The translations under genes and the position numbers were made by a program. From assembly GCA_947453195.1 (NCBI GenBank), contig CANGFO010000005.1, positions 62,001 to 126,000 on the forward strand: a stretch of 64,000 bases of DNA, given 5' to 3'. Positions within the stretch are counted from its first letter, which is position 1. Each line of letters opens with the position of its first letter. The notes below the pieces were generated by a model. It was not told the DNA's origin and searched no databases. It saw only the letters and a program-made list of their open reading frames with translations. This DNA is from Flavobacteriaceae bacterium (GTDB taxonomy: Bacteria; Bacteroidota; Bacteroidia; Flavobacteriales; Flavobacteriaceae). Below are positions 1,862 to 51,867 of the stretch, one piece after another.

Positions 1862-1865
1862 AGAT

Positions 1866-28910: not shown

Positions 28911-29141
28911 ATGCAAAGACATGATTTAAAACACGATTTTCCAGAACATCAGGAAAAAATTCATCAATTAAAAATTGGAGACAAACATTTTAGAGAATTA
29001 TTTGACGAATATCATAAAATTGAGCATCAAGTGCATCGAATTAATACTGGAGTAGAAATTGCAATTGATGAATATGCACATGAAGTAAAAGCAAAATTAT
29101 TGCATCTCAAAGATGAAATTTATAAGTATCTAAATAAATAG
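28911..29141 (+). CDS. DUF465 (YdcH-like) protein
   Basis: 76-residue, highly charged helical protein. The DUF465 pattern is visible: FPEHQEKIHQLKIGDKHFRELFDEYHKIEHQVHRI, then a second helix with KLLHLKDEIYKYL. No enzyme motif or membrane segment. It lies 30 bases after the cco membrane protein gene and just before a strong terminator, so it is probably the last gene of the cco operon. Function unknown. Confidence 0.85.
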   Translation: MQRHDLKHDFPEHQEKIHQLKIGDKHFRELFDEYHKIEHQVHRINTGVEIAIDEYAHEVKAKLLHLKDEIYKYLNK

Positions 29142-29160
29142 AATAGTTCTATTTTTATAG

Positions 29161-29192
29161 TAAAGCACACTTTTAAGTGTGCTTTACTTTTT
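29161..29192 (+). terminator. terminator of the cco operon
   Basis: 12-bp inverted repeat (29161-29172 and 29175-29186) followed by CTTTTTTC, the intrinsic terminator pattern. Confidence 0.85.
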
Positions 29193-29253
29193 TCGGGTAT
29201 TAGCTAAATGAATTTATGTGTAAATGTTCTTCAAAATTCTTGAAACAAAAGCC

Positions 29254-29261
29254 TATTTTTG
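29254..29261 (+). promoter_or_regulatory. -7 box of the ABC-F gene
   Basis: TATTTTTG (TAnnTTTG) 20 bases before the GTG at 29282; it lies inside the longer open frame beginning at 29216, so the longer start would be untranscribed from this promoter. Confidence 0.55.
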
Positions 29262-29281
29262 CAAAAAAAATAAATACACTT

Positions 29282-31138
29282 GTGAATTACCTTTCAGTAG
29301 AAAATATATCGAAATCCTTTGGCGAACGAACTTTGTTCAAAGACATTTCATTTGGAATTAATAAAGACCAAAAAATAGCCTTCATTGCCAAGAATGGATC
29401 TGGGAAAACCTGCATCATGAAAATTATTAATGGTGAAGACGAACCCGATTCGGGTCAAGTGGTAATTCGTAAGGAAATTAAGATGGCATTTTTATCTCAA
29501 GTTCCCCAATTGCAAGATGAATTAACAGTTGAGGAGAGCATCTTTGCAAGCGATAATGAAATTCTTCATGTTATTGAACGCTACGAAAAAGCACTTGAAA
29601 ACCCAGAAGATACCGAAGCTTATGAAAAAGCATTTGACGATATGGATCGTTTTAATGCTTGGGATTTTGAGACCCAATTCAAGCAAATATTATTCAAACT
29701 GAAATTGGAAGATTTCAAATTGAAGGTAAAAAATATGTCGGGTGGACAGAAAAAACGACTTTCACTAGCCATAATATTAATCAATCGCCCTGATTTATTG
29801 ATTTTAGACGAACCTACCAATCACCTTGATTTAGAGATGATTGAATGGTTAGAAAGTTATTTTGCTAAAGAAAACATTACTTTGTTTATGGTTACACACG
29901 ACCGTTTCTTTTTGGAGCGTGTTTGTAATGAAATCATCGAATTAGACAACGGAAAATTATACAGCTATAAAGGTAATTATTCCTATTACTTAGAGAAAAA
30001 AGAAGAACGAATTGCCTCAGAAAATGCTAGTGTCGATAAGGCCCAAAACCTTTTTGTAAAAGAATTGGCTTGGATGCGCAGACAGCCAAAAGCGAGAACT
30101 ACCAAATCGAAATCGCGTCAAGATGATTTTTATGTGATTAAGGAGAAGGCCGAAAGTCGTAGAAAGGAAAATGTAGTGGAACTCGAAATAAATATGGAAC
30201 GTCTTGGAAGCAAGATTATTGAGTTGCATAAAATTTCGAAAAAGTTTGGCGATAAAAAAATATTAGAAAATTTCAGTTTTGATTTTCAACGAGGTGCCCG
30301 AATAGGAATTATTGGTAAAAACGGAACGGGAAAATCGACGTTTCTAAATTTGCTTACGCAAACCATCCCTACCGATTCAGGTAAGGTAATAACGGGGGAT
30401 ACCATTAAAATTGGATATTATACGCAAAGCGGAATCAACCCAAAACCAGGTCAACGCGTTATTGATATCATTAAAGAATACGGCGAATACATCCCGTTGA
30501 TGAAAGGGAAATTAATTTCGGCTTCGCAATTATTAGAACGCTTCCTTTTTGATAGCAAAAAACAATACGATTTTGTGGAGAAATTGAGTGGGGGAGAGCT
30601 TAAACGATTGTATTTATGTACCGTTTTAATTCAGAATCCGAATTTCTTAATTCTGGATGAGCCTACAAACGATTTAGATATTGTAACCCTAAATGTATTA
30701 GAAAGTTTCTTGTTGGACTATCCGGGTTGTCTTCTTGTGGTTTCCCACGACAGGTATTTTATGGATAAAATTGTAGATGATTTATTTGTTTTTAGAGGGG
30801 ACGGAATTATAGAAAACTTTCCTGGAAATTACTCCGATTTTAGAGCTTATGAAGATTCTGCTGATCCAATAAATAAAGACGATAATAAAGAAAAGACCAA
30901 TTGGAAGACCAAAACTATTTCATCGGGATTAGACTTTAATGAACAAAAAGAATTCAATAAAATCGAAAAGGAAATAAAAGATTTAGAATTCCAAAAGAAA
31001 CAAATTGAACAATTATTTTCAGACGGAAAAGTAGCCGATTCTGAAATTGAAGCTAAAGCTAACGAATTGCAGAAAATAATTCAAACGCTTGAAAATAAAG
31101 AAGAACGCTGGTTTGAATTGAGTTCTAAAATGGAGTAA
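29282..31138 (+). CDS. ABC-F family ATP-binding protein
   Basis: Soluble protein with two ABC ATPase domains, about 618 residues; ABC-F proteins act on ribosomes or translation. Start set at GTG 29282, giving (M)NYLSVENISKSFG, because the longer frame from ATG 29216 includes a promoter box. Domain 1: AKNGSGKT Walker A, MSGGQKKRL signature, LILDEPTNHLD Walker B. Linker with RRQPKARTTKSKSRQDDF. Domain 2: GKNGTGKS, LSGGELKRL, LILDEPTNDLD. A C-terminal helical coiled-coil follows (about 560-618), as in Uup/EttA relatives. Confidence 0.92.
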   Translation: MNYLSVENISKSFGERTLFKDISFGINKDQKIAFIAKNGSGKTCIMKIINGEDEPDSGQVVIRKEIKMAFLSQVPQLQDELTVEESIFASDNEILHVIERYEKALENPEDTEAYEKAFDDMDRFNAWDFETQFKQILFKLKLEDFKLKVKNMSGGQKKRLSLAIILINRPDLLILDEPTNHLDLEMIEWLESYFAKENITLFMVTHDRFFLERVCNEIIELDNGKLYSYKGNYSYYLEKKEERIASENASVDKAQNLFVKELAWMRRQPKARTTKSKSRQDDFYVIKEKAESRRKENVVELEINMERLGSKIIELHKISKKFGDKKILENFSFDFQRGARIGIIGKNGTGKSTFLNLLTQTIPTDSGKVITGDTIKIGYYTQSGINPKPGQRVIDIIKEYGEYIPLMKGKLISASQLLERFLFDSKKQYDFVEKLSGGELKRLYLCTVLIQNPNFLILDEPTNDLDIVTLNVLESFLLDYPGCLLVVSHDRYFMDKIVDDLFVFRGDGIIENFPGNYSDFRAYEDSADPINKDDNKEKTNWKTKTISSGLDFNEQKEFNKIEKEIKDLEFQKKQIEQLFSDGKVADSEIEAKANELQKIIQTLENKEERWFELSSKME

Positions 31139-31140
31139 TA

Positions 31141-31953
31141 ATGGTTTTGCATTCAATTAAATCCTACCTCAAATTTATTTGGAACTCCAAAAACCAACAT
31201 GGAGTGCACTCGCCCTTTGTATATAATTTGGTAACAAAATGCTTTTATGACAAAACAAATTACGAGGAATATTCTATTTTAAAATCCTATCGAAACGAAC
31301 TTTTAGTAAATAAAAATACCATTCAAGTAACCGACTTTGGAGCAGGATCTCGAGTATTTAAAAGTAATTCAAGAAACATAAACCAAATTGCTAAAAATGC
31401 CGGAATTTCTCCCAAAAGAGCCAAATTGTTATTTAGAATTGTATACTATTTCCAACCAAACTCTATATTAGAAATTGGCACCTCTCTAGGATTAGCCACT
31501 TCTGCTTTGGCATTAGGACTCGAGGTGAAGACGGACAAAGCGAAACTTAATAAAAATGCAAAAATCATAACATTAGAAGGTTGTCCAAATACAGTATTAA
31601 TTGCTAAAAAACAATGTCAATTACAAAATTTCAATAACATTGAATTTGTGAATACCGAATTTACTAGCTACCTCTCAAGCCATTCCCCAATCCCCAATCC
31701 CCAGAACCTAATTTACTTTGACGGCAACCATTCACAAAAAGCAACTTTAGAGTATTTTGAATTGTTGTTGCCAACAAGTACCAATAATTCGGTATGGATA
31801 TTTGATGATATTCATTGGAGTAAAGACATGGAAGATGCTTGGGAAATCATTCGAAATCATCCCAAAGTCACCGTTACAATTGATACGTTTCAATGGGGAA
31901 TCGTATTCTTTAGAAACGAACAAAAGAAAGAGCATTTTGTGATTCGAACATAA
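31141..31953 (+). CDS. class I SAM-dependent methyltransferase
   Basis: 270-residue putative methyltransferase. Seen: N-terminal NSKNQHGVHSPFVYNLVT (typical of a Bacteroidota group of O-methyltransferase-like proteins), SILEIGTSLGLATSAL near 110 (SAM-binding G-rich loop), ITLEGCPN (acidic residue for ribose), YFDGNHSQKAT near 196 and IFDDIHWS near 221, giving Methyltransf_24-like metal/SAM motifs. A 7-base tandem repeat at 31684-31704 encodes a Pro-rich loop just before YFDGNHS. Directly follows the ABC-F stop. Substrate unknown. Confidence 0.8.
   Translation: MVLHSIKSYLKFIWNSKNQHGVHSPFVYNLVTKCFYDKTNYEEYSILKSYRNELLVNKNTIQVTDFGAGSRVFKSNSRNINQIAKNAGISPKRAKLLFRIVYYFQPNSILEIGTSLGLATSALALGLEVKTDKAKLNKNAKIITLEGCPNTVLIAKKQCQLQNFNNIEFVNTEFTSYLSSHSPIPNPQNLIYFDGNHSQKATLEYFELLLPTSTNNSVWIFDDIHWSKDMEDAWEIIRNHPKVTVTIDTFQWGIVFFRNEQKKEHFVIRT
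31684..31704 (+). repeat. three copies of a 7-bp tandem repeat inside the methyltransferase gene
   Basis: Units TCCCCAA, TCCCCAA, TCCCCAG in direct succession. Since 7 is not a multiple of 3, gain or loss of a unit would shift the reading frame. Confidence 0.8.
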
Positions 31954-32046
31954 AATAAAATGCATTTTTTGTAACAAAAATCGATTTTGTATTACTTATC
32001 TTTACATTCTAAATCAGCATTCGTTAATCTATATTCTTAAATCAAA

Positions 32047-32745
32047 ATGGCAAATCCTTTAATTCAAATCACCAATATTAAACGTGATTTTCAACTCGGA
32101 AACGAAACCATTAACGTACTTAAAGGTATTGATTTACAAATTAATAAAGGCGAATATGTAGCGTTAATGGGACCTTCAGGTTCTGGAAAATCTACACTTA
32201 TGAATCTTTTGGGTTGTCTTGATACGCCAACTTCAGGGACCTATATTCTAAACGGAAATGATGTTTCCCAAATGCACGACGACGATCTTGCCGAAATTCG
32301 AAATAAAGAAATCGGTTTTGTATTCCAAACTTTCAATCTTTTGCCTAGAACAACCGCGTTAGATAATGTGGCATTACCTATGATTTATGCCGGATATTCT
32401 AAAACTGATAGAAATATTCGTGCTACCGAAGTGCTAAAACAAGTAGGACTTGACGATCGTATGGACCACCAACCCAACCAGCTTTCGGGTGGACAACGCC
32501 AGCGTGTGGCTGTTGCCCGTGCCTTGGTGAATAACCCTTCCATAATTCTTGCCGACGAACCAACCGGAAATTTAGATAGTAAAACTTCGGTTGAAATCAT
32601 GAAACTTTTTGGCGATATTCATGCTGCCGGAAACACAGTGATTTTAGTAACGCACGAAGAAGACATAGCCAAGTATGCACACCGAATTATCCGTTTGCGC
32701 GACGGAATGATTGAAAGTGACAATCTTAACGAAGGTCATTTATAA
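32047..32745 (+). CDS. LolD/MacB-type ABC transporter ATPase
   Basis: 232-residue ABC ATPase: Walker A GPSGSGKS near 40, Q-loop [16 protein letters not shown], signature [15 protein letters not shown], Walker [12 protein letters not shown] and switch His VTHEED. The [12 protein letters not shown] signature is typical of the LolD/MacB/FtsE subgroup that works with FtsX-like permeases. No permease gene adjoins it, so the partner is elsewhere. Own transcription unit. Confidence 0.92.
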
Positions 32746-32808
32746 TTGTCACGCAGAGCTCAATCAAAATAAGGAGCGAAACATTAGGCTTTATCAGTAA
32801 TCCATTTT

Positions 32809-32857
32809 CCCGCCATTCGCAGTATCTCTGCGAGGATACTTGCTGCTGTCGGGGCTA
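32809..32857. repeat. structured intergenic repeat-like element
   Basis: GC-rich island in AT-rich DNA. Inner hairpin: AGTATCT (32821-32827) with GGATACT (32834-32840), one G-T pair. Outer arms: CCCG (32809-32812) with CGGG (32850-32853). It encodes no convincing protein. By recollection it resembles a structured intergenic repeat found in many Flavobacterium genomes (not verified here). The whole 32746-32878 gap holds no gene. Confidence 0.5.
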
Positions 32858-32878
32858 ATGAGTCAGCATTTTGTTTAC

Positions 32879-32909
32879 TTGTTAACTTCAAAAAAAGGCA
32901 GTATATTAG
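32879..32909 (+). promoter_or_regulatory. promoter of the cobalamin adenosyltransferase gene
   Basis: TTG at 32879-32881, 20 bases, then TATATTAG at 32902-32909 (one mismatch to TAnnTTTG), 26 bases before the ATG at 32936. Confidence 0.5.
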
Positions 32910-32935
32910 CAACTTTCAACCTCAGATTCTTAATA

Positions 32936-33505
32936 ATGAAAATATATACCAAATCCGGCGACACAGGCACTACATCATTATATGGAGGGACTCGTGTATC
33001 CAAACATCACATTCGTATAGAAAGTTACGGAACCGTAGATGAATTAAACTCCCATATTGGTTTACTTCGTGATCAAGATATGAATCCTTATTACAAAAAG
33101 GTGTTACTTGAAGTACAAGATCGACTGTTTACTGTAGGAGCTATTTTGGCAACCCCTCCCGAAGATGAAAAACTAAAAAACGGAGAAAAACGATTGCAGA
33201 ATTTAGGAATTTTAGAATCAGACATCGAATTTCTAGAAAAAGAAATAGATGCTATGGACGAATCTTTGCCGGCAATGACTAGTTTCGTGCTTCCAGGCGG
33301 ACATACCATTGTGTCATATTGTCACATTGCTAGATGTGTTTGTCGTAGAGCAGAGCGTTTGGCAGTGTATCTTAATGACATCGAACCTACCGAAGAACTA
33401 GTTATTAAGTACCTTAACCGACTTTCTGACTATCTTTTTGTGTTGGCACGAAAATTGACTTTAGACTTAAACGCAGAGGAAATGCCTTGGATTCCTAGGA
33501 AATAA
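32936..33505 (+). CDS. PduO-type cob(I)yrinic acid a,c-diamide adenosyltransferase
   Basis: 189-residue ATP:corrinoid adenosyltransferase. Start at ATG 32936 (MKIYTKSGDTGTTSLYGGTR), because the longer frame from 32840 reads through the structured repeat and promoter. Seen: KSGDTGTTSLYGG (ATP-binding loop), GTVDELNSHIG and CRRAERLAVYL, all standard PduO motifs. It converts cob(I)alamin to adenosylcobalamin for B12-dependent enzymes. Confidence 0.93.
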   Translation: MKIYTKSGDTGTTSLYGGTRVSKHHIRIESYGTVDELNSHIGLLRDQDMNPYYKKVLLEVQDRLFTVGAILATPPEDEKLKNGEKRLQNLGILESDIEFLEKEIDAMDESLPAMTSFVLPGGHTIVSYCHIARCVCRRAERLAVYLNDIEPTEELVIKYLNRLSDYLFVLARKLTLDLNAEEMPWIPRK

Positions 33506-33612
33506 TTTGCAGTGCTAGGTTTCAATTTACAGTTTTTAACTAGTTGTTACCGAATACAGAAGAGAAAAAACACACGTTCTTAAATTTAATTTGAAATTAA
33601 ATCATTTTTTAC

Positions 33613-33642
33613 TTGACTTTTTCAGTTAAAAAATTATTTTTG
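33613..33642 (+). promoter_or_regulatory. canonical promoter of the DUF2795 gene
   Basis: TTG at 33613-33615, a 19-base spacer, then TATTTTTG at 33635-33642: the best Bacteroidota sigma-ABfr promoter match in the window. Confidence 0.75.
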
Positions 33643-33666
33643 CATAAATTATAAAATCGAAAGCAG

Positions 33667-33888
33667 ATGTATTGGACATTAGAATTGGCATCTTATTTAA
33701 GTGATGCGCCATGGCCAGCAACCAAAGATGAACTTATAGACTACGCTATTAGAGCAGGTGCCCCCCTGGAAGTAGTAGAAAACCTACAATCTATTGAAGA
33801 CGAAGGTGAAATATATGAATCAATGGAAGAAATTTGGCCAGATTATCCTACAGACGAAGATTATCTTTGGAATGAGGATGAATATTAA
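33667..33888 (+). CDS. DUF2795 domain-containing small acidic protein
   Basis: 73-residue acidic protein resembling DUF2795 members: MYWTLELASYLSDAPWPATKDELIDYA, then APLEVVENLQSIEDEGEIYESMEEIWPDYPTDEDY. No signal peptide, membrane span or catalytic motif. It has a strong promoter and a hairpin after it and precedes secA. Function unknown. Confidence 0.85.
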   Translation: MYWTLELASYLSDAPWPATKDELIDYAIRAGAPLEVVENLQSIEDEGEIYESMEEIWPDYPTDEDYLWNEDEY

Positions 33889-33910
33889 AAAAAAATAATT
33901 AATACCACAG

Positions 33911-33941
33911 AAAAAAAAGTCTCCTTTGGGGCTTTTTTTTT
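33911..33941 (+). terminator. hairpin terminator after DUF2795
   Basis: A-run, short imperfect GC stem (GTCTCC with GGGGC, one bulge), TTT loop and a run of nine T. The A and T runs extend the stem. Confidence 0.7.
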
Positions 33942-33959
33942 GTTAATAATAACTTTCCT

Positions 33960-33990
33960 TTTTGGTTTTTTAAAAAAAGGAAAACCAAAA
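33960..33990 (+). other. 5'-leader hairpin upstream of secA
   Basis: Perfect 10-bp inverted repeat TTTTGGTTTT (33960-33969) with AAAACCAAAA (33981-33990), 11-base loop, 16 bases before the secA ATG. Low GC, so weak; role unknown. Confidence 0.4.
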
Positions 33991-34006
33991 TATAAATAAA
34001 CCAATT

Positions 34007-37000
34007 ATGAGTTTCATAAATAGTATACTTAAAGTATTTGTAGGGGATAAATCTCAAAAAGATGTAAAAGCTACACAACCTTATATTGCCAAAGTAAAAG
34101 CATTAGAGTCTGCCCTTATGGCTTTGTCTCACGATGAATTGCGTGCTAAAACAGCCGAGTTCAAAGCAAAGATAAAACAAGCTCGTTCAAAACAAGATGC
34201 CGAAATTGAGGCAAAAAAGATTGAAGCCGAAAATACTTCCGACATTGATTTAAGAGAAGATAACTACAATGAAATTGATGCTTTAGAAAAAGAAGCCTAC
34301 GAAATATCTGAAAAGGTATTGATGGATATTCTTCCTGAAGCTTTTGCTGTTGTTAAAGAAACCGCAAGAAGATTTAAAGAAAATACTACAATTACGGTTA
34401 CTGCTAGTGAAAAAGATAGAGAATTATCTGCAACCAAACCCTATATTACTTTAGTTGGTGATCAAGCCAATTGGGCAAACCAATGGAATGCTGCCGGTAA
34501 AGAAATCACTTGGGATATGATTCACTATGATGTTCAATTAATAGGTGGTATAGTATTACATGAAGGAAAAATCGCAGAGATGCAAACAGGAGAGGGGAAA
34601 ACATTGGTAGCAACCCTACCTTTATATTTAAATGCCTTAACAGGAAACGGAGTGCATTTGGTAACCGTGAATGATTACCTTGCTAAGCGTGATAGCACTT
34701 GGAAAGCACCTTTATTTGAATTCCACGGATTAATGGTAGATTGTATTGATAACCATTCGCCAAATACTGCCGAAAGAAGAAAAGCTTACGAAGCCGATAT
34801 CACTTACGGTACGAACAACGAGTTTGGTTTTGATTATCTAAGAGATAACATGGCACACTCTCCAGAGGATTTAGTACAAAGAAAACACAACTACGCCATT
34901 GTCGATGAGGTCGATTCGGTATTAATTGATGATGCTAGAACGCCTTTAATTATTTCTGGACCAGTTCCAGATGGAGATCGTCATGAGTTTAACGAATTGA
35001 AGCCTAAAGTTGAAAATCTTTACAACTTACAACGCCAATTGGCAAATGGTTTTTTATCGGAAGCTAGAAAATTAATCAAAGAAGGAAATGCAAAAGACGG
35101 AGGATTCCAATTATTGCGTGCCTACCGTTCTTTGCCAAAAAACAAAGCGCTTATCAAATTTTTAAGTGAAGAAGGTATCAAGCAATTGTTGCAAAAAACA
35201 GAAAACGAATACATGAGCGACAACAACAGAAAGATGCCGCTTGTAGATGAAGCTTTGTATTTTGTAATTGAAGAAAAAAACAACCAAGTTGAATTAACCG
35301 ATAACGGAATTCAATTTTTGTCTAAAGATACCGATGAAACGTTCTTCGTTCTTCCAGATATTGGTACTGAAATTGCCAACATCGAAAAACAAAATTTAGA
35401 TAAAGATGCCGAGTTGGAAGCTAAAGAACGTTTGTTTCAAGATTTCGGAATTAAATCGGAACGCATTCATACCCTTACACAATTATTAAAAGCATATACC
35501 CTTTTTGAAAAAGATGTGGAATATGTAATCATGGATAACAAAATCATGATTGTTGATGAGCAAACAGGTCGTATCATGGATGGTCGTCGTTATTCAGATG
35601 GATTGCACCAAGCGATTGAGGCAAAAGAGCAAGTAACTATTGAAGCGGCAACCCAAACATTTGCAACGATTACATTACAAAATTATTTCCGTATGTACAG
35701 CAAATTGGCTGGTATGACCGGAACTGCGGTTACCGAGGCAGGAGAACTTTGGGAAATATATAAATTAGATGTTGTAGAAATCCCTACTAATAGAGGTATT
35801 TCTCGTGAAGATAAAGAAGATTTAATTTACCGTTCTGTTCGTGAAAAATTCAATGCAGTTATTGAAGATGTAACCCAACTTTCTGCATCAGGAAGACCCG
35901 TATTAATTGGAACAACTTCGGTAGAAATCTCTGAATTATTAAGCCGAATGTTGAAAATGCGTGGTGTAGCACACAATGTATTGAATGCAAAAATGCATAA
36001 AAAAGAAGCCGATATCGTTGCTGAAGCAGGGAAACCAGGAGTGGTAACTATCGCAACCAATATGGCAGGTCGTGGAACCGATATTAAGTTAACTCCCGAA
36101 GTGAAAGCTGCCGGAGGTTTAGCAATTATTGGTACAGAGCGTCACGATTCACGTCGTGTAGACCGTCAGTTGCGAGGTCGTGCAGGTCGTCAAGGTGATC
36201 CTGGAAGTTCACAGTTCTATGTTTCTTTGGAAGATAACTTGATGCGTCTTTTTGGTTCAGAAAGAGTGGCCAAAGTAATGGATAGAATGGGATTGAAAGA
36301 AGGTGAAGTAATTCAGCATTCTATGATGACCAAATCAATTGAAAGAGCTCAGAAAAAAGTAGAAGAAAATAACTTTGGAACTCGTAAACGTTTGTTAGAA
36401 TATGACGACGTTATGAATGCACAAAGAGAAGTAGTTTACAAACGTCGCCGTCATGCATTGCATGGAGAACGATTGAAATTAGACATTGTAAATATGATGT
36501 ATGATACTTGCGAGGTTATTGTAAACGACAACAAACCAAGCAATGATTTTAAAAATTTCGAATTTGAATTGATTCGTTATTTTGCGATTACTTCTCCTTT
36601 TTCTTCAAATGATTTTGAAAAAATGTCTGAAATGGAATTGACCGGTAAATTATACAAAGCCGTTATGCAATTCTATACCGAAAAGACAGAACGAACAGCT
36701 AGAGAAGCACTTCCAATCATTACGGATGTTTATAAAAATCCGAATAATCAGTATGAGCGTATTGTGGTTCCGTTTACAGATGGAATTAAATCGTTGAATG
36801 TGGTTACCGATTTGAAGAAAGCTTATGATACTCAAGGCGCGCAGCTAGTTGCTGATTATGAGAAAAATATCACTTTGGCTATTGTTGATGAGGCGTGGAA
36901 AAAGCACTTACGCAAAATGGATGAATTAAAAACATCAGTACAGCTTGCGGTTCACGAACAAAAAGATCCATTATTGATTTATAAATTAGAAGCCTTTAAT

Positions 37001-37351
37001 TTATTTAGAAACATGTTGGACGGTGTAAATAAAGAAGTAATTTCTTTCTTGTTTAAAGGAGATTTGCCTCAACAAAACAATACCATTCAAGAAGCTAAAG
37101 AAGTAAAACGAAAAGAGAATTACACCGAATCTAAAGATGAGGTTTTGAATTCGGATGAATTAGCAGAAAGAAATCACGAGGCGGGTCAAACGCAACAAAG
37201 ACAAGTTACTGAAACTATTGTTCGCGATCAACCAAAAATTAATAGAAACGACAACGTGACCATCAAACATGTCATGAGTGGAAAAACGGAAACGATGAAA
37301 TTCAAAAAAGCCGAAAGCATGTTAGCAAGTGGCGAATGGGTTTTAGTTTAG
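34007..37351 (+). CDS. secA: preprotein translocase ATPase SecA
   Basis: 1114-residue motor of the Sec pathway. MQTGEGKT (Walker A) at about 192-199, [12 protein letters not shown], the DEVDS Walker [18 protein letters not shown], and [15 protein letters not shown] (motif VI) are all present. It is about 200 residues longer than E. coli SecA: most of the excess is an N-terminal charged helical insertion (about 40-110), common in Bacteroidota. The E. coli-type C-terminal zinc-binding motif is absent; the protein ends GEWVLV. Confidence 0.97.
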
Positions 37352-37366
37352 TTTATAATTAATAAT

Positions 37367-37399
37367 AAATCCCCAACTGAAAAGTTGGGGATTTTTTTA
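37367..37399. terminator. bidirectional terminator between secA and the ancestral hemN 3' end
   Basis: 12-bp stem AAATCCCCAACT (37367-37378), GAAA loop, its complement at 37383-37394, followed by T residues; A-rich on the other side, so it can serve both strands. It lies a few bases from the left 23-bp repeat. Confidence 0.85.
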
Positions 37400-37403
37400 A
37401 ACG

Positions 37404-37426
37404 GTCATCGAGAACAACTGCGTTTG
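37404..37426 (+). repeat. left copy of the 23-bp direct repeat (attachment-site-like)
   Basis: Starts GTCATCGAGAACAACTGC and continues GTTTG. On the minus strand it continues into GTT TAA, giving the hemN-like end MTV-stop. Confidence 0.85.
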
Positions 37427-37494
37427 GGTTAAATATTTTTTCTGCTGGGTGATTTATATATTATAATTCTACAAAATATATTAATTTAGCTTTT

Positions 37495-40400
37495 ATGAAT
37501 ACTAAATCAATAATAACCACTTCCAATAACTGGCTGGAGTTAAAAGAAAAGCTAAATGGATTGTCCAAAAAAGAAATGGGCAATGTATTTGAATTTCTTA
37601 CCAAACTGTATTTCACCATCCAACCAAAGTATGCTTTTTACAACAATGTTTGGTTGCTAAACGAGGTGCCGAGTTCTATACTAGAGCATCTAGAACTGCC
37701 TTCGCACGATTTAGGAATTGATTTAATTGCCCAATGGGGCGATGAATTTCATGCCATACAATGTAAATACCATTCTGATTATAACACTTCTGTAAATTTT
37801 AAAGAAGTGGCAACATTCATTTCGCTTTTGGAAGGAAATTCTAAATTCACCCAAGGCTATATTTGTTCTACTGCCGATAGCACTTCTAGAAATTTAGACA
37901 AAGTAAAAACCAAACACATCAACCACATTCTTTCGGATAGTTGGCAAGAACTAGACGAAGATTTTTTTGAAAAGGTTAGAAACTATTTTGAAAACAAAAG
38001 TTACAAACCAATTGCTTATACTCCCAAAGAGCACCAAGTAAAAGCACTTAAAGATTGCGTTACCTATTTCAACAATCCCGAAAACAGCAAAGGAAAACTA
38101 ATTTTCCCGTGTGGTGCCGGAAAGAGTTTAACTGGTTTTTGGATGACCCAAGAACTAAAGTCAACGGCCACCATTATTGCCGTTCCGAGTTTGTCTTTGG
38201 TGAAGCAAACGCTGGATGTCTATCTTAGAGAAATTGTTGCTCGAGGCATTGCGGTAGAATGGCTTTGCATCTGTTCGGATGAAGGGATTGGTAAAGACGA
38301 TGAAATTCTGGAGAAAACCGAAAGTCTTGGAGTGCCTTGCGAAACCGACCCGATTTATATTGAAAATTGGCTGCTAAAAAACAAAGGCAAACACACAATA
38401 ATATTTACCACCTACCAAAGTGGAAAAATCATTGCCGATGTTTCTAAAAAAGTAAATTTCAAATTCGATTTAGGGATTTTTGACGAAGCGCACAAAACCG
38501 TTGGATTGAACAAAAAATTGTTCAGTTACTTGCTTTTTGACAACAACATTAGCATAGACAAAAAGATTTTCATGACCGCCACAGAGCGATTTTATAGTGG
38601 CACCAAAGAAGATATTATCTCTATGGATGATACCGATATTTATGGCGATACATTTTCGCAAATGAGTTTCAAGGAAGCAATTGAAAAAGAATTGTTAACC
38701 GATTATAAAGTCATCACTATTGATGTAAAAAAGAGTGAAATTGCCGAATTCATTAAAAGCAATAACCTGGTGCAATTGAACAACAAGTGGAAAAACGAAA
38801 CCGAAGCACGGTCGTTGGCTTCCATGATTGCCTTGCGAAAAGCAATGAAAGTCTTGCCCATAAAAAATGCCGTTTCCTTTCATTCCTCTATTGAAAAAGC
38901 CGAACGCAATAAAGAACTACAAAATTACATTACCAATACCTACCAATACGATGCTATCAATTCGTACACCGTTTCGAGTAAAGTTCCAACCACAAGACGT
39001 AATGTATTGGTGCAAGAGTTTGCCAATTCTTCTATAAAAGCATTAATTACCAACTCCAAATGTTTAACCGAAGGAGTAGATGTACCCAACATTGATTGTA
39101 TTGTTTTTGCCGACCCACGAAAAAGCAAAGTAGATATCGTGCAAGCGTTAGGTAGAGCGCTACGAAAAAAAGAAGGCAAAGAATGGGGTTATGTAATTTT
39201 ACCGGTGATTTATGATGATATAACCCACGAAATAGACAATGAAAATTATGCCGAAATAATTTCTATTATTAGAGGTTTGGCCTCTAATGACGAGCGAATT
39301 GTAGAATATTTTAAAGAGAAAGGCGATACCACAAGAACCAAAAGAGTACAAGGATCTTCTTTATTTGATTTTAATTTCTCCTCCGAATTACTAGACGAAA
39401 AAGACCTTACTGCCCAACTCCAAATAAAAATATGGGAAAACCTTTCTAAGTTCCAATGGATGCCTTTTGAGGAGGCAAGGGAGTTTGTGAGAACACTTGG
39501 ATTGAAAAGACAGGAAGAATATACCGAAATGTGGAAAAATAGAAGACTACCTAATGATGTACCTGGAAATCCTAGAGGAGTATATAAAAATAGTGGCTTT
39601 GTTTCAATGCCGGATTTTCTAGGTTATGATTCTTTATTTCAAGATTGGAAAAATTGGGATGAAACAATTCAAATTATTCATCCATTAAAATTAAAAAGTG
39701 CCTCTGAATTTAGAAATTATATCAAAATAAATACAATTAAAGGAATTCACTCCTCTCCAGAATTTTATTTTAAAAATATTTGGAATGAAAAAGGATGTTG
39801 GTCAGCATATTTAGGAAAACCAATAACTTCACAAGAAAAAGCGAAATTAAGATTGCCATACGAAAAAGCAAAAGAATTTGTATGGAATTTAAAATTCAAA
39901 ACAGGAGATGAGTGGAAAGAATATATAAAATCAAAAGAATTTCCGATTTTCCTTCCCCAATCACCACAAAACACATACGAAGAATGGATTGGCATTGATG
40001 ATTGGATTGGCCCTACATATTTAAAGCGTAATCAAAGAGCATCTTTGAAATATTTAACTTTTTTAGATGCAAAAAAATATGTACAAACTCTAAAATTGAA
40101 AAATTATGAAGAATGGGAGAAAATTATTCAAACCAAAAAATTACCCAAAAATATTCCATCTAAACCAGATAGGATTTATCCATCTGAATGGGTTGGTATA
40201 AATGATTGGATTGGAACAGAATCTTCCTCTGATAGGAAGAAAAGATATTTATCATTTAACGATGCAAAGAAATTAATTAAAACTTTAAATATTAAATCCA
40301 ATAAAGATTGGAGGAAGTTAAAATTGAACAAAGATATCCCGAATAACATACCACCTTCTCCAGAAAAACATTATATTTCAGAATGGATAAGTTGGGGGGA

Positions 40401-40623
40401 TTTTTTAGGAAATTCTAACAAATCTTCCAAAGAGAAAGAATATATCTCTTTATTAGATTTGAAAAAGTTAATAAAAGAACTAAAATTAACATCTAAAGAA
40501 AAATATGCTACTTTTATTAAAGAAATTAATTTTAAAAATGGAAAATATGATATTCCCTCTGCTCCAAATTCTATATATAAATCTGAATGGAAAGGCTGGG
40601 CAGATTTTCTAGGTAAAGAATAA
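37495..40623 (+). CDS. Mrr-like nuclease / SF2 helicase with C-terminal Trp-rich repeats
   Basis: 1042 residues. N-terminal PD-(D/E)xK domain: D76 in LGIDLIAQ and Q89-C90-K91 in FHAIQCKYHSD (Mrr-type QxK). SF2 helicase: Walker A PCGAGKS at 205-211, DEAH at 330-333, TAT at 361-363, TEGVDVPNID at 525-534, QALGRALR at 550-557. C-terminal six repeats of about 55 residues (roughly 657-710, 711-774 degenerate, 788-839, 853-907, 918-972, 983-1040), each with a Lys-rich helix, LP/IP..P, an aromatic and a final EW-x-GW/W-x-D-W/F-L/I-G. The N-terminal two-thirds resembles the motor of type ISP restriction enzymes, but no methyltransferase or classical target-recognition domain exists. A defence role is plausible but unproven. 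Confidence 0.85.
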   Translation: MNTKSIITTSNNWLELKEKLNGLSKKEMGNVFEFLTKLYFTIQPKYAFYNNVWLLNEVPSSILEHLELPSHDLGIDLIAQWGDEFHAIQCKYHSDYNTSVNFKEVATFISLLEGNSKFTQGYICSTADSTSRNLDKVKTKHINHILSDSWQELDEDFFEKVRNYFENKSYKPIAYTPKEHQVKALKDCVTYFNNPENSKGKLIFPCGAGKSLTGFWMTQELKSTATIIAVPSLSLVKQTLDVYLREIVARGIAVEWLCICSDEGIGKDDEILEKTESLGVPCETDPIYIENWLLKNKGKHTIIFTTYQSGKIIADVSKKVNFKFDLGIFDEAHKTVGLNKKLFSYLLFDNNISIDKKIFMTATERFYSGTKEDIISMDDTDIYGDTFSQMSFKEAIEKELLTDYKVITIDVKKSEIAEFIKSNNLVQLNNKWKNETEARSLASMIALRKAMKVLPIKNAVSFHSSIEKAERNKELQNYITNTYQYDAINSYTVSSKVPTTRRNVLVQEFANSSIKALITNSKCLTEGVDVPNIDCIVFADPRKSKVDIVQALGRALRKKEGKEWGYVILPVIYDDITHEIDNENYAEIISIIRGLASNDERIVEYFKEKGDTTRTKRVQGSSLFDFNFSSELLDEKDLTAQLQIKIWENLSKFQWMPFEEAREFVRTLGLKRQEEYTEMWKNRRLPNDVPGNPRGVYKNSGFVSMPDFLGYDSLFQDWKNWDETIQIIHPLKLKSASEFRNYIKINTIKGIHSSPEFYFKNIWNEKGCWSAYLGKPITSQEKAKLRLPYEKAKEFVWNLKFKTGDEWKEYIKSKEFPIFLPQSPQNTYEEWIGIDDWIGPTYLKRNQRASLKYLTFLDAKKYVQTLKLKNYEEWEKIIQTKKLPKNIPSKPDRIYPSEWVGINDWIGTESSSDRKKRYLSFNDAKKLIKTLNIKSNKDWRKLKLNKDIPNNIPPSPEKHYISEWISWGDFLGNSNKSSKEKEYISLLDLKKLIKELKLTSKEKYATFIKEINFKNGKYDIPSAPNSIYKSEWKGWADFLGKE

Positions 40624-40628
40624 TTTTG
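40621..40628 (+). promoter_or_regulatory. -7 box overlapping the helicase stop codon
   Basis: TAATTTTG (TAnnTTTG); its first three bases are the helicase stop. 15 bases before the ATG at 40644, so the small gene may be transcribed alone. Confidence 0.45.
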
Positions 40629-40643
40629 TATAAATTAACATCC

Positions 40644-40922
40644 ATGACCCAACCAAAAAGCACCCCAAACGAAACCTTACCAAGAAAAAAAGAAGGTACT
40701 GGTTGTGCTTATATGATAATGGCTGCGTTTATTGTATTTTTTATTATTGTTTCTAAAAATACCAATAGCGTAGGCAGTTATGTAGCGCCACACCACACTA
40801 GAAGTGGTAAAATGGTAAAAGCCCATCCAAGAAAAAACACTAGCACCGATGCACATGCTGTACAAAACCGCAACCGAAGTAAAGGCTACCATTATTTGCA
40901 TAAATCAAGATATAAAAAATAA
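40644..40922 (+). CDS. small basic single-span membrane protein, unknown function
   Basis: 92 residues from ATG 40644 (a TTG at 40626 would overlap the -7 box). One hydrophobic helix CAYMIMAAFIVFFIIVSK (about 21-38), then a basic His/Arg/Lys-rich tail with RSGKMVKAHPRKNTS and NRNRSKGY. No known domain recognised; the RxGKxVKxHxRK-type tail recurs in small Bacteroidota proteins as far as I recall. It lies 20 bases after the nuclease-helicase, inside the 23-bp repeats, so it may be a partner or just cargo. Confidence 0.6.
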   Translation: MTQPKSTPNETLPRKKEGTGCAYMIMAAFIVFFIIVSKNTNSVGSYVAPHHTRSGKMVKAHPRKNTSTDAHAVQNRNRSKGYHYLHKSRYKK

Positions 40923-40988
40923 AGTTTCGGTGTGTTGATTCCTACTTATTGTCAGTCTTTTTTTATCAAATACTCTAAGAAATCAAAG

Positions 40989-42353
40989 TTATACAGTCAT
41001 CGAGAACAACTGCGTTTGTGGAGCCTTGCGTTTCAATCTTAAATCGAAGGCCATGCAAATATTTCTTACAAACGGTTTTCCTTTTTCTGTTACGGTAAGA
41101 GCGTTGTTTTCAATTACAATAAGACCATCGGTTTCCATTTCGTGTAATTGTCCTAAAATTTCGGTTATTTCTATAAAGAAACTTTCTTTGGTATCCCAAG
41201 AAGTGGTAAATTGACACATTAAATTAAGGATGTGTTTTCTTATTTTTAAATCTTCTTCGGTTAGAATATGTCCGCGAACCACAGGTAATTCATTGCGGTC
41301 AATTCGATTGTAATAGTCTTCAATTGTTTTTTCATTTTGGGCAAAACTATACCAGCTATCACTTATAGAAGAAACCCCCAATCCTATCATTAATTTAGTT
41401 TTAGAAGAAGTATAGCCCATAAAATTGCGATGTAATTTTTTGTCTTGAAACGATTGATACATGCTGTCGGTCGCAAGAGCAAAGTGATCCATTCCAATTT
41501 CATGGTAATTATTGGCCGCCAATCGTTTTTTTCCTTCTTCATACAATTGTCTTTTGGCGTCATCTTTGGGGACATCATTATCTTTAAAACCGCGTTGGCC
41601 ATTGCCTTTTATCCAAGGCACATGCGCATAGCTGTAAAAGGCCAATCGATCGGGTTGCAGTGAATTTGTTTTATCAATGGTGTCAATTACATCATCCAAT
41701 GTTTGAAAGGGTAAGCCAAATATTAAATCGTGCCCAACAGAAGTGTATCCTATTTCTTTAGCCCAAAAAGTTACTTTGGCAACATTATGAAAGGGTTGCA
41801 CTCGGTGAATTGCTTGTTGTACTTTTTCTGAATAATCCTGCACACCATAACTTACTCTTCTAAAACCTAAATTATATAAGGTTTGCAAATGGGTTCGTGT
41901 GGTGTTATTGGGATGTCCTTCAAAACTAAATTCGTGCTCTGGAGCTTTGATGGCTCGTAAGAAAATTCCGTTGATTAGGGTTTCTAAGTTTTCTGGAGAG
42001 AAAAAAGTTGGCGTTCCACCACCTAAATGAATTTCTTTAATTAGGGGCTTATTAGGCAATAAATCGCAATACAATTCCCATTCTTTAAGTAATGCGGTGA
42101 TGTACGGATTTTCTACATCGTGTCGTTTTGTTATTCTTTTATTGCATCCGCAAAAAGTACACAGGCTTTCGCAAAAAGGAAGGTGAATGTATAAGCTAAT
42201 TCCTTCCGATTGATTACTTTCTTCAAAGGACTTAATAAAAGTGCTTTTCCATAATTCGGTTGAAAACAAGTCTTCTTCCCAATAGGGAACAGTAGGGTAG
42301 CTTGTATACCTTGGACCTGGAACATTGTATTTTTGAATTAACGACACCGACAT
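40989..42353 (-). CDS. hemN: oxygen-independent coproporphyrinogen III oxidase
   Basis: 454-residue radical-SAM enzyme for anaerobic haem synthesis: decarboxylates coproporphyrinogen III to protoporphyrinogen IX. CESLCTFCGC at 61-70 binds the 4Fe-4S cluster (C61, C65, C68) with the HemN-typical extra C70. HLGGGTPTFFSP, GHPNNTT and SYGVQDYSEKVQQAIHRVQP are conserved. Its last codons are the right copy of the 23-bp repeat; the same C-terminus is also encoded at 37404. An FNR-like operator lies 48 bases upstream. Confidence 0.96.
   Translation of the reverse strand: MSVSLIQKYNVPGPRYTSYPTVPYWEEDLFSTELWKSTFIKSFEESNQSEGISLYIHLPFCESLCTFCGCNKRITKRHDVENPYITALLKEWELYCDLLPNKPLIKEIHLGGGTPTFFSPENLETLINGIFLRAIKAPEHEFSFEGHPNNTTRTHLQTLYNLGFRRVSYGVQDYSEKVQQAIHRVQPFHNVAKVTFWAKEIGYTSVGHDLIFGLPFQTLDDVIDTIDKTNSLQPDRLAFYSYAHVPWIKGNGQRGFKDNDVPKDDAKRQLYEEGKKRLAANNYHEIGMDHFALATDSMYQSFQDKKLHRNFMGYTSSKTKLMIGLGVSSISDSWYSFAQNEKTIEDYYNRIDRNELPVVRGHILTEEDLKIRKHILNLMCQFTTSWDTKESFFIEITEILGQLHEMETDGLIVIENNALTVTEKGKPFVRNICMAFDLRLKRKAPQTQLFSMTV
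40996..41018 (+). repeat. right copy of the 23-bp direct repeat, inside hemN
   Basis: Identical to 37404-37426. On the minus strand it encodes QTQLFSM and the first two bases of the next Thr codon. The following codons are ACT GTA TAA versus ACC GTT TAA at the left copy, synonymous changes. Confidence 0.9.
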
Positions 42354-48867: not shown

Positions 48868-50733
48868 ATGAAAAGAATAGCTTTACTAACATTACTTGGA
48901 ATTGCATTAACAGCAAATGCTCAAACAAAAAAGTCAGTTACGAAACTCCAACAAAAAGTAATTGCAGTTGAAAAAAAGAAGGTGGTTTATCAAGTTTTTA
49001 CAAGATTGTTTGGAAATAAAAACACAATCAATAAACCTTGGGGAACCATTGCTGAAAATGGAGTTGGAAAATTTAATGACTTTACCGATAAAGCCTTAAC
49101 GGAAATTAAAAATCTTGGGGTAACTCATATTTGGTATACTGGCGTGCCACATCATGCCTTAGTTAACGATTATACAAAATATGGAATTTCTAATGATGAT
49201 CCCGAAGTGGTTAAAGGACGAGCAGGTTCACCTTATGCTGTGAAAGATTATTACAGCGTAAACCCTGATTTGGCCGTGGATCCTTCAAAACGTATGGAAG
49301 AATTTGAAGCACTTATTGCGCGTTCCCATAGAAACGGATTAAAGGTGATTATTGATATTGTTCCCAATCACATAGCTCGTAAATACGTTGGTTTAAATAA
49401 TCCAAATGGAGTTCGTGATTTTGGTGCTGATGATAATACCAATGTCGAATACGATAGAAATAACAACTTTTATTACATTCCGGGGCAACCTTTTCAAGTT
49501 CCAACATCCGATTCGTATAAGCCTTTAAATGGAGAAGCACATCCATTAATTGACGGAAAATTTGATGAAAATCCAGCAAAATGGACGGGTAACGGATCTC
49601 GTTTAGCGAAGCCAGACATAAACGATTGGTATGAAACCGTAAAAGTAAATTATGGTGTTCGCCCAGATGGTACTAAAGATTTTCCCGAATTACCCAAAGG
49701 ATTTGATAAGAAATCATGCAAAGAGCATTTTGAATTCTGGAAAAATAAAGATGTGCCTAGTTCTTGGATAAAATTCCGCGATATTGCCTTGTTCTGGACT
49801 GCCAAAGGGGTAGATGGTTTTCGATATGATATGGCCGAAATGGTGCCATATGAATTTTGGAGTTACATGAATTCAGCTATTAAAATGAAAAATCCAGATG
49901 CTTTTTTAATGGCAGAAGTTTACAATCCTAACGAATATAGAAATTATATTTACCTTGGTAAAATGGATTATTTGTATGATAAAGTAGCGACTTATGACAA
50001 ATTGAAGGAGGTAGTTCAAGGAAGATCGAGTGCTGATGGGCTAACAAATATTCAAAATAGTATGGCTGATATTGAAAGCCATATGCTTCATTTTTTAGAT
50101 AATCATGATGAGCAAAGATTGGCGAGTCCAGAATTTGCTGGAAGTGGAGAATATGGTAAACCATTAATGGTCGTTTCGGCTACCATAGGTTCATCACCTG
50201 CTATGGTTTATTTTGGTCAAGAAGTAGGAGAAGCTGGGAATGAGAATGGTGGTTTTGGAACACATTCTAGAACTTCTATTTTTGATTATGTTGGTGTGCC
50301 AAGTCATCAAAGATGGATGAATGGCGGTAAATTTGACGGAGGTTTGTTATCTGATAAAGAAAAAGAACTTAGAGATTTTTATAAACGATTATTGAATTTC
50401 ACTCTTAAAAGTGATGGATTGATGGGTCAGTTTGAAGAAATTCAAACTATAAATAGAAAAGAAACGGCTAATTACGATGAAAGTAAATATGCTTTTGTTC
50501 GTTGGTCTGCAAAGGAAAAATTAATCATAGTAGTTAATTTTTCAAAAGATAAAGACGCTGATGTTGAACTTATTATTCCGGCAGCTATTATTGCAAAATG
50601 GAAACTCAAAGACGGAATTTATAAGGTAACCGATCAATTGTATGGGGGTGTAAATCAGTTGCAAGTAGTTAAAGGAATAGGAACAATAAAAGTGAATTTA
50701 CCTTCAAGCGGAAGTTTTATTTATAAACTATAA
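48868..50733 (+). CDS. secreted alpha-amylase-family glycoside hydrolase (GH13)
   Basis: 621-residue enzyme with a signal peptide (MKRIALLTLLGIALTANA, cleavage before QT). GH13 motifs: IIDIVPNH near 161-168, GVDGFRYDMAEM with the nucleophile D321, LMAEVYNP with acid/base E350 and FLDNHDEQR with D414. A beta-sandwich domain ends the protein. Expected to act on alpha-glucans in the periplasm or outside. No susC/susD pair adjoins it. Downstream GT2 follows after 6 bases. Confidence 0.93.
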   Translation: MKRIALLTLLGIALTANAQTKKSVTKLQQKVIAVEKKKVVYQVFTRLFGNKNTINKPWGTIAENGVGKFNDFTDKALTEIKNLGVTHIWYTGVPHHALVNDYTKYGISNDDPEVVKGRAGSPYAVKDYYSVNPDLAVDPSKRMEEFEALIARSHRNGLKVIIDIVPNHIARKYVGLNNPNGVRDFGADDNTNVEYDRNNNFYYIPGQPFQVPTSDSYKPLNGEAHPLIDGKFDENPAKWTGNGSRLAKPDINDWYETVKVNYGVRPDGTKDFPELPKGFDKKSCKEHFEFWKNKDVPSSWIKFRDIALFWTAKGVDGFRYDMAEMVPYEFWSYMNSAIKMKNPDAFLMAEVYNPNEYRNYIYLGKMDYLYDKVATYDKLKEVVQGRSSADGLTNIQNSMADIESHMLHFLDNHDEQRLASPEFAGSGEYGKPLMVVSATIGSSPAMVYFGQEVGEAGNENGGFGTHSRTSIFDYVGVPSHQRWMNGGKFDGGLLSDKEKELRDFYKRLLNFTLKSDGLMGQFEEIQTINRKETANYDESKYAFVRWSAKEKLIIVVNFSKDKDADVELIIPAAIIAKWKLKDGIYKVTDQLYGGVNQLQVVKGIGTIKVNLPSSGSFIYKL

Positions 50734-50739
50734 TTATCT

Positions 50740-51867
50740 ATGCAATTATCGGTAATCATCCTTAATTATAATGTGCGCTATTTTTTAGAGCAATGCGTTT
50801 TAAGTGTTCAAAAAGCACTTGAAGGGATTGATGGTGAAATAATTGTTATTGATAATAATTCTTCAGACGATAGTTGTGTCATGATGCAGCAACGTTTTCC
50901 TGAGGTAAAATTGATATCAAATACCGAGAATTTAGGTTTTCCAAAGGGTAATAATATTGGAGTTTCCCAAGCCAAAGGTGAATATATTTGCATTCTAAAT
51001 CCGGATACTATTGTTGCTGAAGATACCTTTTCTAAAATTCTAAATCCAATTAATTGGAAACCAGAAACCGGAATTATTGGCTGCAAATTGATAGATGGAG
51101 CCGGAAACTTTTTACCTGAAAGTAAACGTGGAATTCCAACACCTTGGGTTTCGTTCACCAAGATTTTTGGGTTGTATAAAATATCCAATTTGTTTGGCAA
51201 GTATTATGCCCAACATTTATCAAAAGAGCAATCCGGAAAAGTTGAAATTCTTGTGGGCGCCTTTATGGTGATGAAACGGGATTTGTATAACAAAATTGGA
51301 GGATTTGATGAAAATTGTTTCATGTATTCCGATGATATTGATTTAAGTTACTTGGTATTGCAAGAAGGAAAATACAATTATTATTTTCATGATACCACGG
51401 TAATTCATTTTAAAGGAGAAAGCACTGTACGAGACGGAACGTATATGAAACGTTTTCAAGAAGCTATGAATTTCTTTTATAGAAAACATTTTAAGGTTTC
51501 CTTATTCTTTTCTTTTTTTATGAAAATTGGAATTGTTTTGTTTTCATTTTTTAAAAGATTTCAAGGTAATGTAACTGAAAAAATCCAGCCCGATTCTTAT
51601 TTTTTAGTTACTGAAAGTGCCAATAAAGAGCAGTTGCTTCACGATTTAGAAAGTAAATTTGGACCAAAATTTACAGAGGTTGTTGATGCGTCTATCAAAA
51701 CTGAATTTATATTGGATTTATCCACGATTTCTTGCAAAAAAGCAATTCAATTTATGGAAGACCATAAAGGCAAAAATCACACATTTAAATTAATTTCTTC
51801 TAACGCGACTTTTATTATTGGAAGTAACAACAGTAACGATAGAGGGGAAATGCTAGTTTTAGAATAA
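50740..51867 (+). CDS. GT2 glycosyltransferase, rhamnosyltransferase-like
   Basis: 375-residue GT2: LSVIILNYNVRYFLEQC, IIVIDNNSSDDSC, NLGFPKGNN, CILNPDTIV (DxD equivalent) and GGFDENCFMYSDDIDLSYL near 190 are the WbbL-type signature. A hydrophobic helix near 255-275 suggests membrane association. The C-terminal ~100 residues form an extra domain of unknown role. It is 6 bases after the GH13 gene. Confidence 0.85.
   Translation: MQLSVIILNYNVRYFLEQCVLSVQKALEGIDGEIIVIDNNSSDDSCVMMQQRFPEVKLISNTENLGFPKGNNIGVSQAKGEYICILNPDTIVAEDTFSKILNPINWKPETGIIGCKLIDGAGNFLPESKRGIPTPWVSFTKIFGLYKISNLFGKYYAQHLSKEQSGKVEILVGAFMVMKRDLYNKIGGFDENCFMYSDDIDLSYLVLQEGKYNYYFHDTTVIHFKGESTVRDGTYMKRFQEAMNFFYRKHFKVSLFFSFFMKIGIVLFSFFKRFQGNVTEKIQPDSYFLVTESANKEQLLHDLESKFGPKFTEVVDASIKTEFILDLSTISCKKAIQFMEDHKGKNHTFKLISSNATFIIGSNNSNDRGEMLVLE

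Follow-up and report, generated by a model that had tools for sequence, protein, structure and literature searches.

A predicted restriction gene cassette flanked by duplicate hemN 3′ ends in a Flavobacteriaceae genome: a candidate insertion with target duplication

Integrative elements that carry a tyrosine recombinase are found in the 3′ ends of protein-coding genes, where a direct repeat spans the gene end and the reading frame is kept. Insertion of restriction-modification genes with target duplication was reportedly described by Nobusato et al. in 2000 and by Furuta et al. in 2010. Here we analyzed a stretch of 64,000 nucleotides from a Flavobacteriaceae bacterium (assembly GCA_947453195.1, contig CANGFO010000005.1, positions 62,001 to 126,000; hereafter the window), in which a two-gene cassette lies between two direct copies of the hemN 3′ end. 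The cassette comprises R, encoding a predicted nuclease-helicase of 1042 amino acids (aa), and ORF2 (open reading frame 2, 92 aa). The best explanation, to which we give a little less than an even chance, is that a cassette of likely horizontal origin was likely inserted into the hemN end with a ∼30-bp target duplication, and was not placed there by an integrase.

According to the excerpts available of PMC3874152, PMC1643837 and PMC3031569, restriction genes move without linkage to known mobile elements, duplicate their target on insertion and are associated with rearrangements. The excerpt of PMC3874152 separates two classes, one with a short duplication and imperfect inverted repeats at the termini, the other with a duplication on the order of 100 bp, and notes that such movement often accompanies rearrangement. 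The locus is similar in that a gene predicted to be of the restriction type appears inserted, with a flanking direct target repeat, no transposase or integrase, and a rearrangement nearby. It differs from the long class, as that excerpt gives it, by a duplication of 30 bp instead of ∼100 bp, and from the short class by the absence of inverted repeats at the cassette ends. Further, the cassette lacks a methyltransferase, and the example passages in those excerpts concern Helicobacter.

The duplicated hemN 3′ end

A sequence-only reading of the window had claimed a 23-bp direct repeat that duplicates the hemN 3′ end, and the identity is exact: positions 37404–37426 and 40996–41018 agree at 23/23 bp in direct orientation. 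Similarity runs on through the hemN stop codon (37397–37426 vs. 40989–41018, 28/30 bp). On the minus strand each copy reads QTQLFSMTV-stop and covers the last ten codons of hemN. The two mismatches between the copies are both synonymous (ACC/ACT and GTT/GTA), so that the shared peptide and stop, with synonymous differences in the last two sense codons, were also read correctly. With up to 3 mismatches allowed, the 23-mer has two matches in the whole window, a number reached in 0/100 shuffles, and the same two copies, with no third, across the 2.42-Mb genome. No second exact direct repeat of at least 20 bp is present on the plus strand of the window.

In the non-coding sequence of the window, taken as a control that counts some stretches twice and contains the left copy itself, a random base followed by Val-stop was found at 9/3471 positions, and by Val- or Ile-stop at 35/3471. 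Occurrence of Val-stop in both copies by chance is unlikely (∼0.3–1%). Judged by their sequence, both copies look like true hemN ends. The TAA stop codon of the left copy directly adjoins the T-run of the secA terminator hairpin (37370–37398). The features of the segment are as follows (positions in the window).

37370..37398, no strand: hairpin and T-run of the secA terminator; the relatives displayed have comparable hairpins after secA
37397..37426, minus strand: left copy of the hemN 3′ end, 30 bp (23-bp core 37404–37426), its TAA against the secA terminator
37427..37494, no strand: spacer between left copy and R, 68 bp, whose last ∼30 bp resemble, by eye, the sequence upstream of R in genome G398
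37495..40623, plus strand: R, 1042 aa, Mrr_cat_2 nuclease and superfamily 2 (SF2) helicase, Type ISP-like, with a C-terminal INT_rpt array (domain and profile searches)
39442..40620, plus strand: array of R, predicted to consist of six repeats of ∼66 aa each (structure model)
40644..40922, plus strand: ORF2, 92 aa, one hydrophobic stretch by eye (open reading frame list)
40923..40988, no strand: spacer between ORF2 and hemN, 66 bp, unlike the sequence downstream of hemN in relatives
40989..41018, minus strand: right copy, the present hemN 3′ end (23-bp core 40996–41018; repeat comparison)
40989..42353, minus strand: hemN, oxygen-independent coproporphyrinogen III oxidase (TIGR00538)

As the sequence-only reading had stated, no integrase or transposase lies between the repeats: family searches gave no match to such families in R or ORF2. 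The Pfam "integrase repeat unit" (INT_rpt) found in R is the name of a repeat and not a recombinase. ORF2 gave no match in Pfam, PADLOC or NCBIfam searches, is 85% identical to the ORF2 that adjoins R in G398, and has 13 relatives in the protein collection. R and ORF2 likely travel as a pair, because the longest contigs of three ORF2 relatives (P0122, P0124 and P0127) are equal in size to those of the R homologues P0004, P0011 and P0006.

The segment has no terminal inverted repeats (8/20 terminal bases pair, and the best score was equalled by 499/500 shuffles), and no inverted repeat was found between the two spacers. The proposal that the 66-bp spacer is native hemN downstream sequence was dropped, as its alignment to relatives gave no signal (88/300 shuffles reached the best score). 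DNA searches with the spacers against ten genomes returned the window itself, terminator-like matches, the upstream end of R in G398 and weak short matches.

Distribution of the cassette and rearrangement of the secA block

The locus was compared with 100 genomes, 99 of the window's genus and G398. The 99 were chosen from the top of a list of 245 genus genomes with a hemN-like match; some were passed over manually, following no set rule and frequently when a contig apparently ended near hemN, and genome G160 was counted once. The sequence covered downstream of hemN was 2.4–16.1 kb (median 14.9 kb). R and ORF2 were absent from the stretch 3′ of hemN in 100/100 genomes. A single hemN end, with no second within up to 15 kb fetched, was observed in 99/100, none of which has a secA–hemN junction.

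In wider, overlapping draws, a cutoff of E ≤ 1e-60 placed R in 6/398 genomes of the genus, namely the window's own and five whose proteins are 33–38% identical. At E ≤ 1e-150, the window's own was the one genome with R among 397 of the family. Scanning genome contigs revealed one close R locus, L122 in G398 (CAILWV010000077.1). Viral contigs held no relatives of R or ORF2. R matched 734 plasmid and 217 phage records, every one at <60% identity and none covering 80%.

At fourfold sites the window and G398 differ at 48/246 positions in R (0.20) and at 9/29 in ORF2 (0.31), when compared with 0.47–0.68 in ten neighbouring genes, for example 177/377 in secA (0.47), 80/125 in hemN (0.64) and 110/182 in the 48868 gene (0.60); an eleventh neighbour, 29216, was excluded, since the G398 stretch gave only a paralogue. 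Over residues 120–600 of R, DNA identity to G398 is 96–98% per block, save for 84% and 92% within 320–400. Because R is far less diverged from its G398 counterpart than the neighbouring genes are, R was likely acquired horizontally, to judge by these divergences. In G398, R and ORF2 adjoin secA. Genome G028 has an R-less version of the intergenic site that holds R in G398, with flanks 97% identical over 215 bp and 87% over 494 bp (mostly repeats), and because that site exists without R the cassette comes or goes.

Downstream of secA, G398 and G028 (L122 and L106) share ∼100-bp repeats (CTCCTCCTTTGGAGGAGTGGCC...). Their secA genes differ by 0–2% over most of 750–3000 and by 5–16% before it, a sign of recent interspecies exchange.

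The window differs from its close relatives in gene order, and the features concerned are listed here.

28911..29194, plus strand: gene for a DUF465 protein with its terminator, next to hemN on its 3′ side in genome G137 (gene order)
29216..37399, plus strand: block probably relocated and inverted, with genes for a double ATP-binding cassette (ABC) ATPase, a methyltransferase, an ABC ATPase, a cobalamin adenosyltransferase and SecA (gene order)
34007..37351, plus strand: secA (profile search)
50731..50742, no strand: new junction between the 48868–50733 gene and the 50740 gene, probably left by removal of the secA block (gene order)

G137 and G028 have, in succession, hemN, a DUF349 gene, aroE, two more genes, an aminotransferase gene and an alpha-amylase gene, followed by the secA block on the opposite strand; over the part between the secA block and hemN, both included, G398 (L122) agrees with this order. 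The block lies in G137 between the homologues of 48868–50733 and 50740. The G137 contig extends to the 50740 gene, and the 28179–28880 homologue adjoins the hemN 3′ end there. In the window the block (29216–37399) is inverted and on the opposite side of hemN. Three junctions are changed: (i) DUF465 terminator/29216, (ii) secA side/hemN, and (iii) 48868 gene/50740 gene. The new gene pairs of the first and third were together in no other fetched locus of >6 kb, and the old pair, 29216 and 50740, was together in five loci. We infer that the secA block moved by two inversions or one inverted transposition.

None of the 100 related genomes has secA within the stretch fetched 3′ of hemN, and G137, G028 and G398 have another order; hemN and secA as ancestral neighbours was rejected on these grounds. 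The sequence-only reading had placed the left copy beside the bidirectional secA terminator, where an uninterrupted hemN would have ended: the copy does abut the T-run, but a natural hemN ending there was not upheld, since the rearrangement made the secA–hemN junction.

The hemN 3′ side is variable across the genus. A 28179–28880 homologue lies there in 81/100 genomes, at a gap of <700 bp in 59 and of at least 1 kb in 21, and these 21/81 carry 1–9.8 kb. The few cargoes examined encode proteins with a type IX secretion system (T9SS) tail, a PAS histidine kinase and a REase-ARP restriction-like gene. At L036, L037 and L054 a gene pair of equal lengths (788 and 380 aa) is found 3′ of hemN; at a cutoff of 0.001, the L036 copies matched nothing in Pfam. 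G160 (L042/L219), with two secA genes on small contigs, has an inverted DUF349–aroE block facing hemN, a further case of local rearrangement at the end of this gene.

A second hemN end was found in 1/100 other genomes, G194 (L044), with cargo unrelated to R and ORF2. It lies 2.7 kb downstream of hemN, diverged and in frame, and reads KRKTAQKQLFSMTV-stop. The two ends are alike over ∼120 bp, post-stop sequence included, and between them are a gene for a T9SS-tailed protein and, by eye, one for a small hydrophobic protein. This duplicate end arose independently of that in the window.

Insertion with target duplication and its rivals

The segment looks, from sequence comparison, like an insertion at the hemN 3′ end, because R and ORF2 are absent 3′ of hemN elsewhere, R is little diverged, and each copy has the look of a genuine hemN end. 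The rearrangement would first have brought the secA terminator up against the end of hemN. R and ORF2 would then have entered a ∼30-bp staggered break at that junction, and gap filling would have left one hemN end on each side, so that hemN remained whole. The distal copy would be free to drift, and the two synonymous changes would have followed later. The order of events, rearrangement and then insertion, is our inference, and a single break may have set off both. The proposal in the sequence-only reading of an integration into the hemN 3′ end thus stands in part: an insertion is supported, but not an integrase-type element, and a replacement end carried by the element is unneeded because target duplication gives the same picture. 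The insertion is plausibly a new case of a known behaviour.

Several observations weigh against insertion with target duplication. The proposed comparison of the secA–hemN junction among relatives confirmed that no genome shares R and ORF2 3′ of hemN, but none of the 100 has that junction without R, so an empty site is lacking. In G398 no flanking direct repeat of >10 bp was found around R in the stretches compared, and the position of R beside secA there too is an uncomfortable coincidence if the insertions were independent. The window lies in an assembly of 43 contigs. Finally, the cassette fits neither duplication class cleanly; it would work like the described insertions and is not classed as a member, because its duplication is 30 bp, not ∼100 bp, and terminal inverted repeats are absent.

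The nearest rival, which we consider unlikely, is one-sided homologous recombination: donor DNA with R 3′ of its own hemN would have recombined in hemN and been joined illegitimately at the other side, leaving the old end as a scar. This accounts for two slightly different intact ends and also for the G194 pair with its ∼120 bp, which fits well and can equally be counted for an integrase. The part of PMC3240628 available describes such events for E. coli as well as for competent bacteria, and the near-identical secA stretches of G398 and G028 indicate that these species likely exchange DNA. However, R is 3′ of hemN in 0/100 genomes, hemN has no clear mosaic 3′ part, although closer relatives would be needed to test this sharply, and the 23-bp identity demands a very close donor.

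Integration of a circular element, whose attachment (att) site copies the hemN 3′ end and whose integrase was lost or acts in trans, is distinctly unlikely. As in integrative elements, the att-like repeat spans a gene end and keeps, or restores, the hemN frame and stop in both copies, and G194 offers a second in-frame hemN end with similar downstream sequence and unrelated cargo. The window's genome has five tyrosine recombinase matches (G000 C10, C14, C16, C20 and C22, one at a contig end). In contrast to those elements, the segment holds no integrase, the core does not recur and no circular form is known, and the candidate was rejected on the absence of a recombinase in the segment and of a recurrent core. 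The search for recombinases near elements with the same core, suggested by the sequence-only reading, led to these five matches and to the 23-mer nowhere beyond the hemN-end pair. Viral contigs gave 0 exact matches to the 23-mer and five degenerate ones with no hemN around them, and R in G398 is free of such a repeat. The reading's element with an integrase lost or in trans was not supported by anything tested except the repeat itself. A second hemN end is found in 1/100 genomes, though 21/81 with the usual neighbour carry at least 1 kb there. In a scan of 103 of the 126 ORFs located 3′ of hemN in relatives, the 25 commonest of 172 Pfam families included no integrase, and no literature combining hemN, genomic island, direct repeat, integrase and attachment site was found.

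In DNA duplication associated with inversion, the duplicate is inverted, with one copy at each inversion breakpoint. A quite improbable alternative is that R already lay beside secA, as in G398, and that the hemN-end copy is a by-product of inversion (templated filler or inversion-associated duplication). R follows secA in both the window and G398, the region is rearranged, and duplication with inversion, a short duplication near inverted blocks as here, is reported for Helicobacter pylori in the excerpt of PMC4671568. The copies in the window, however, are direct and at a single junction. In the simplest rearrangement, by our reasoning, the secA–R boundary is no breakpoint, and extra inversions would be needed. 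The copy also retains Val-stop, with the chance given above. Vertical presence of R beside secA was rejected, R being too similar to that of G398 for vertical descent.

An assembly artefact, in which unrelated contigs were joined at a short repeat, is highly improbable: the genome is in 43 contigs, but against this stand the small size of the repeat, coherent flanks, a gene order that needs just one moved block, and protein P0001, which is recorded on two contigs.

The R protein and its repeat array

R is the part of the locus furthest from known systems. Its Pfam domains are Mrr_cat_2, ResIII, Helicase_C and INT_rpt. Residues 22–602 match PADLOC REase_MTase_IIG (1.7e-85), and residues 12–660 match the Type ISP enzyme LlaBIII (structure 4xqk, E 2.5e-75) in a profile search. 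The top Foldseek match of the full-length R model is a Type ISP enzyme, the model being of low confidence (mean predicted local distance difference test, pLDDT, 65.8). D76, Q89, K91, G207/G209/K210/S211 and D330-E331-A332-H333 are invariant in 40 R sequences. A Pfam search found no methyltransferase family in R, and none was recognised among the Pfam accessions listed for 120 R homologues, PF26016, PF28450 and PF21680 aside.

Like the Type ISP enzymes LlaBIII and LlaGI, R has an N-terminal Mrr-type nuclease and an SF2 ATPase; in contrast to them, it has no detected methyltransferase or target recognition domain (TRD) and carries the ∼66-aa INT_rpt array instead. By analogy, R is predicted to be an ATP-driven translocating restriction nuclease, in which the array would take the place of the methyltransferase-recognition part of Type ISP enzymes.

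An array-only model has six ∼66-aa units of about four helices each (mean pLDDT 82.2; predicted template modelling score, pTM, 0.31, which is low), and no solved structural relative of the units was found. Protein lengths among the R homologues P0002–P0120 rise in ∼65-aa steps, reflecting the number of INT_rpt units. Among these proteins, motors that are 92–97% identical carry repeat arrays that differ wholesale, and a conserved motor with a wholly different array is the expected look of a modular specificity domain. With whole arrays apparently swapped between near-identical motors and a varying unit number, the array may be a modular recognition code. The arrangement recalls Type I S subunits, in which, according to the part of PMC3077401 available, TRDs are exchanged or moved and a constant frame has its variable part swapped between alleles; in R, however, the array has many units and lies inside the nuclease-helicase protein, and its recognition role is predicted. 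No literature on restriction enzymes with INT_rpt units was found among the matches listed, judged by title and the start of the abstract, and PF14882 appears just as a table entry in the portion of PMC8078820 available.

We tentatively propose, with considerable doubt, that R may found a class of restriction enzyme, in which a Type ISP-type motor reads its targets via tandem, exchangeable ∼66-aa helical units of unmatched fold, the array acts as a modular recognition code, and the cassette spreads into gene ends with target duplication. If true, a recognition code that can be read would amount to a new type of restriction enzyme, with possible use as a tool.

If the proposed insertion is right, target-duplicating insertion of restriction genes would extend from Helicobacter to Flavobacterium-like bacteria, where it would have struck a core gene's end at the junction of a rearrangement; comparing strains that have and lack the insertion would then allow its mechanism to be tested.

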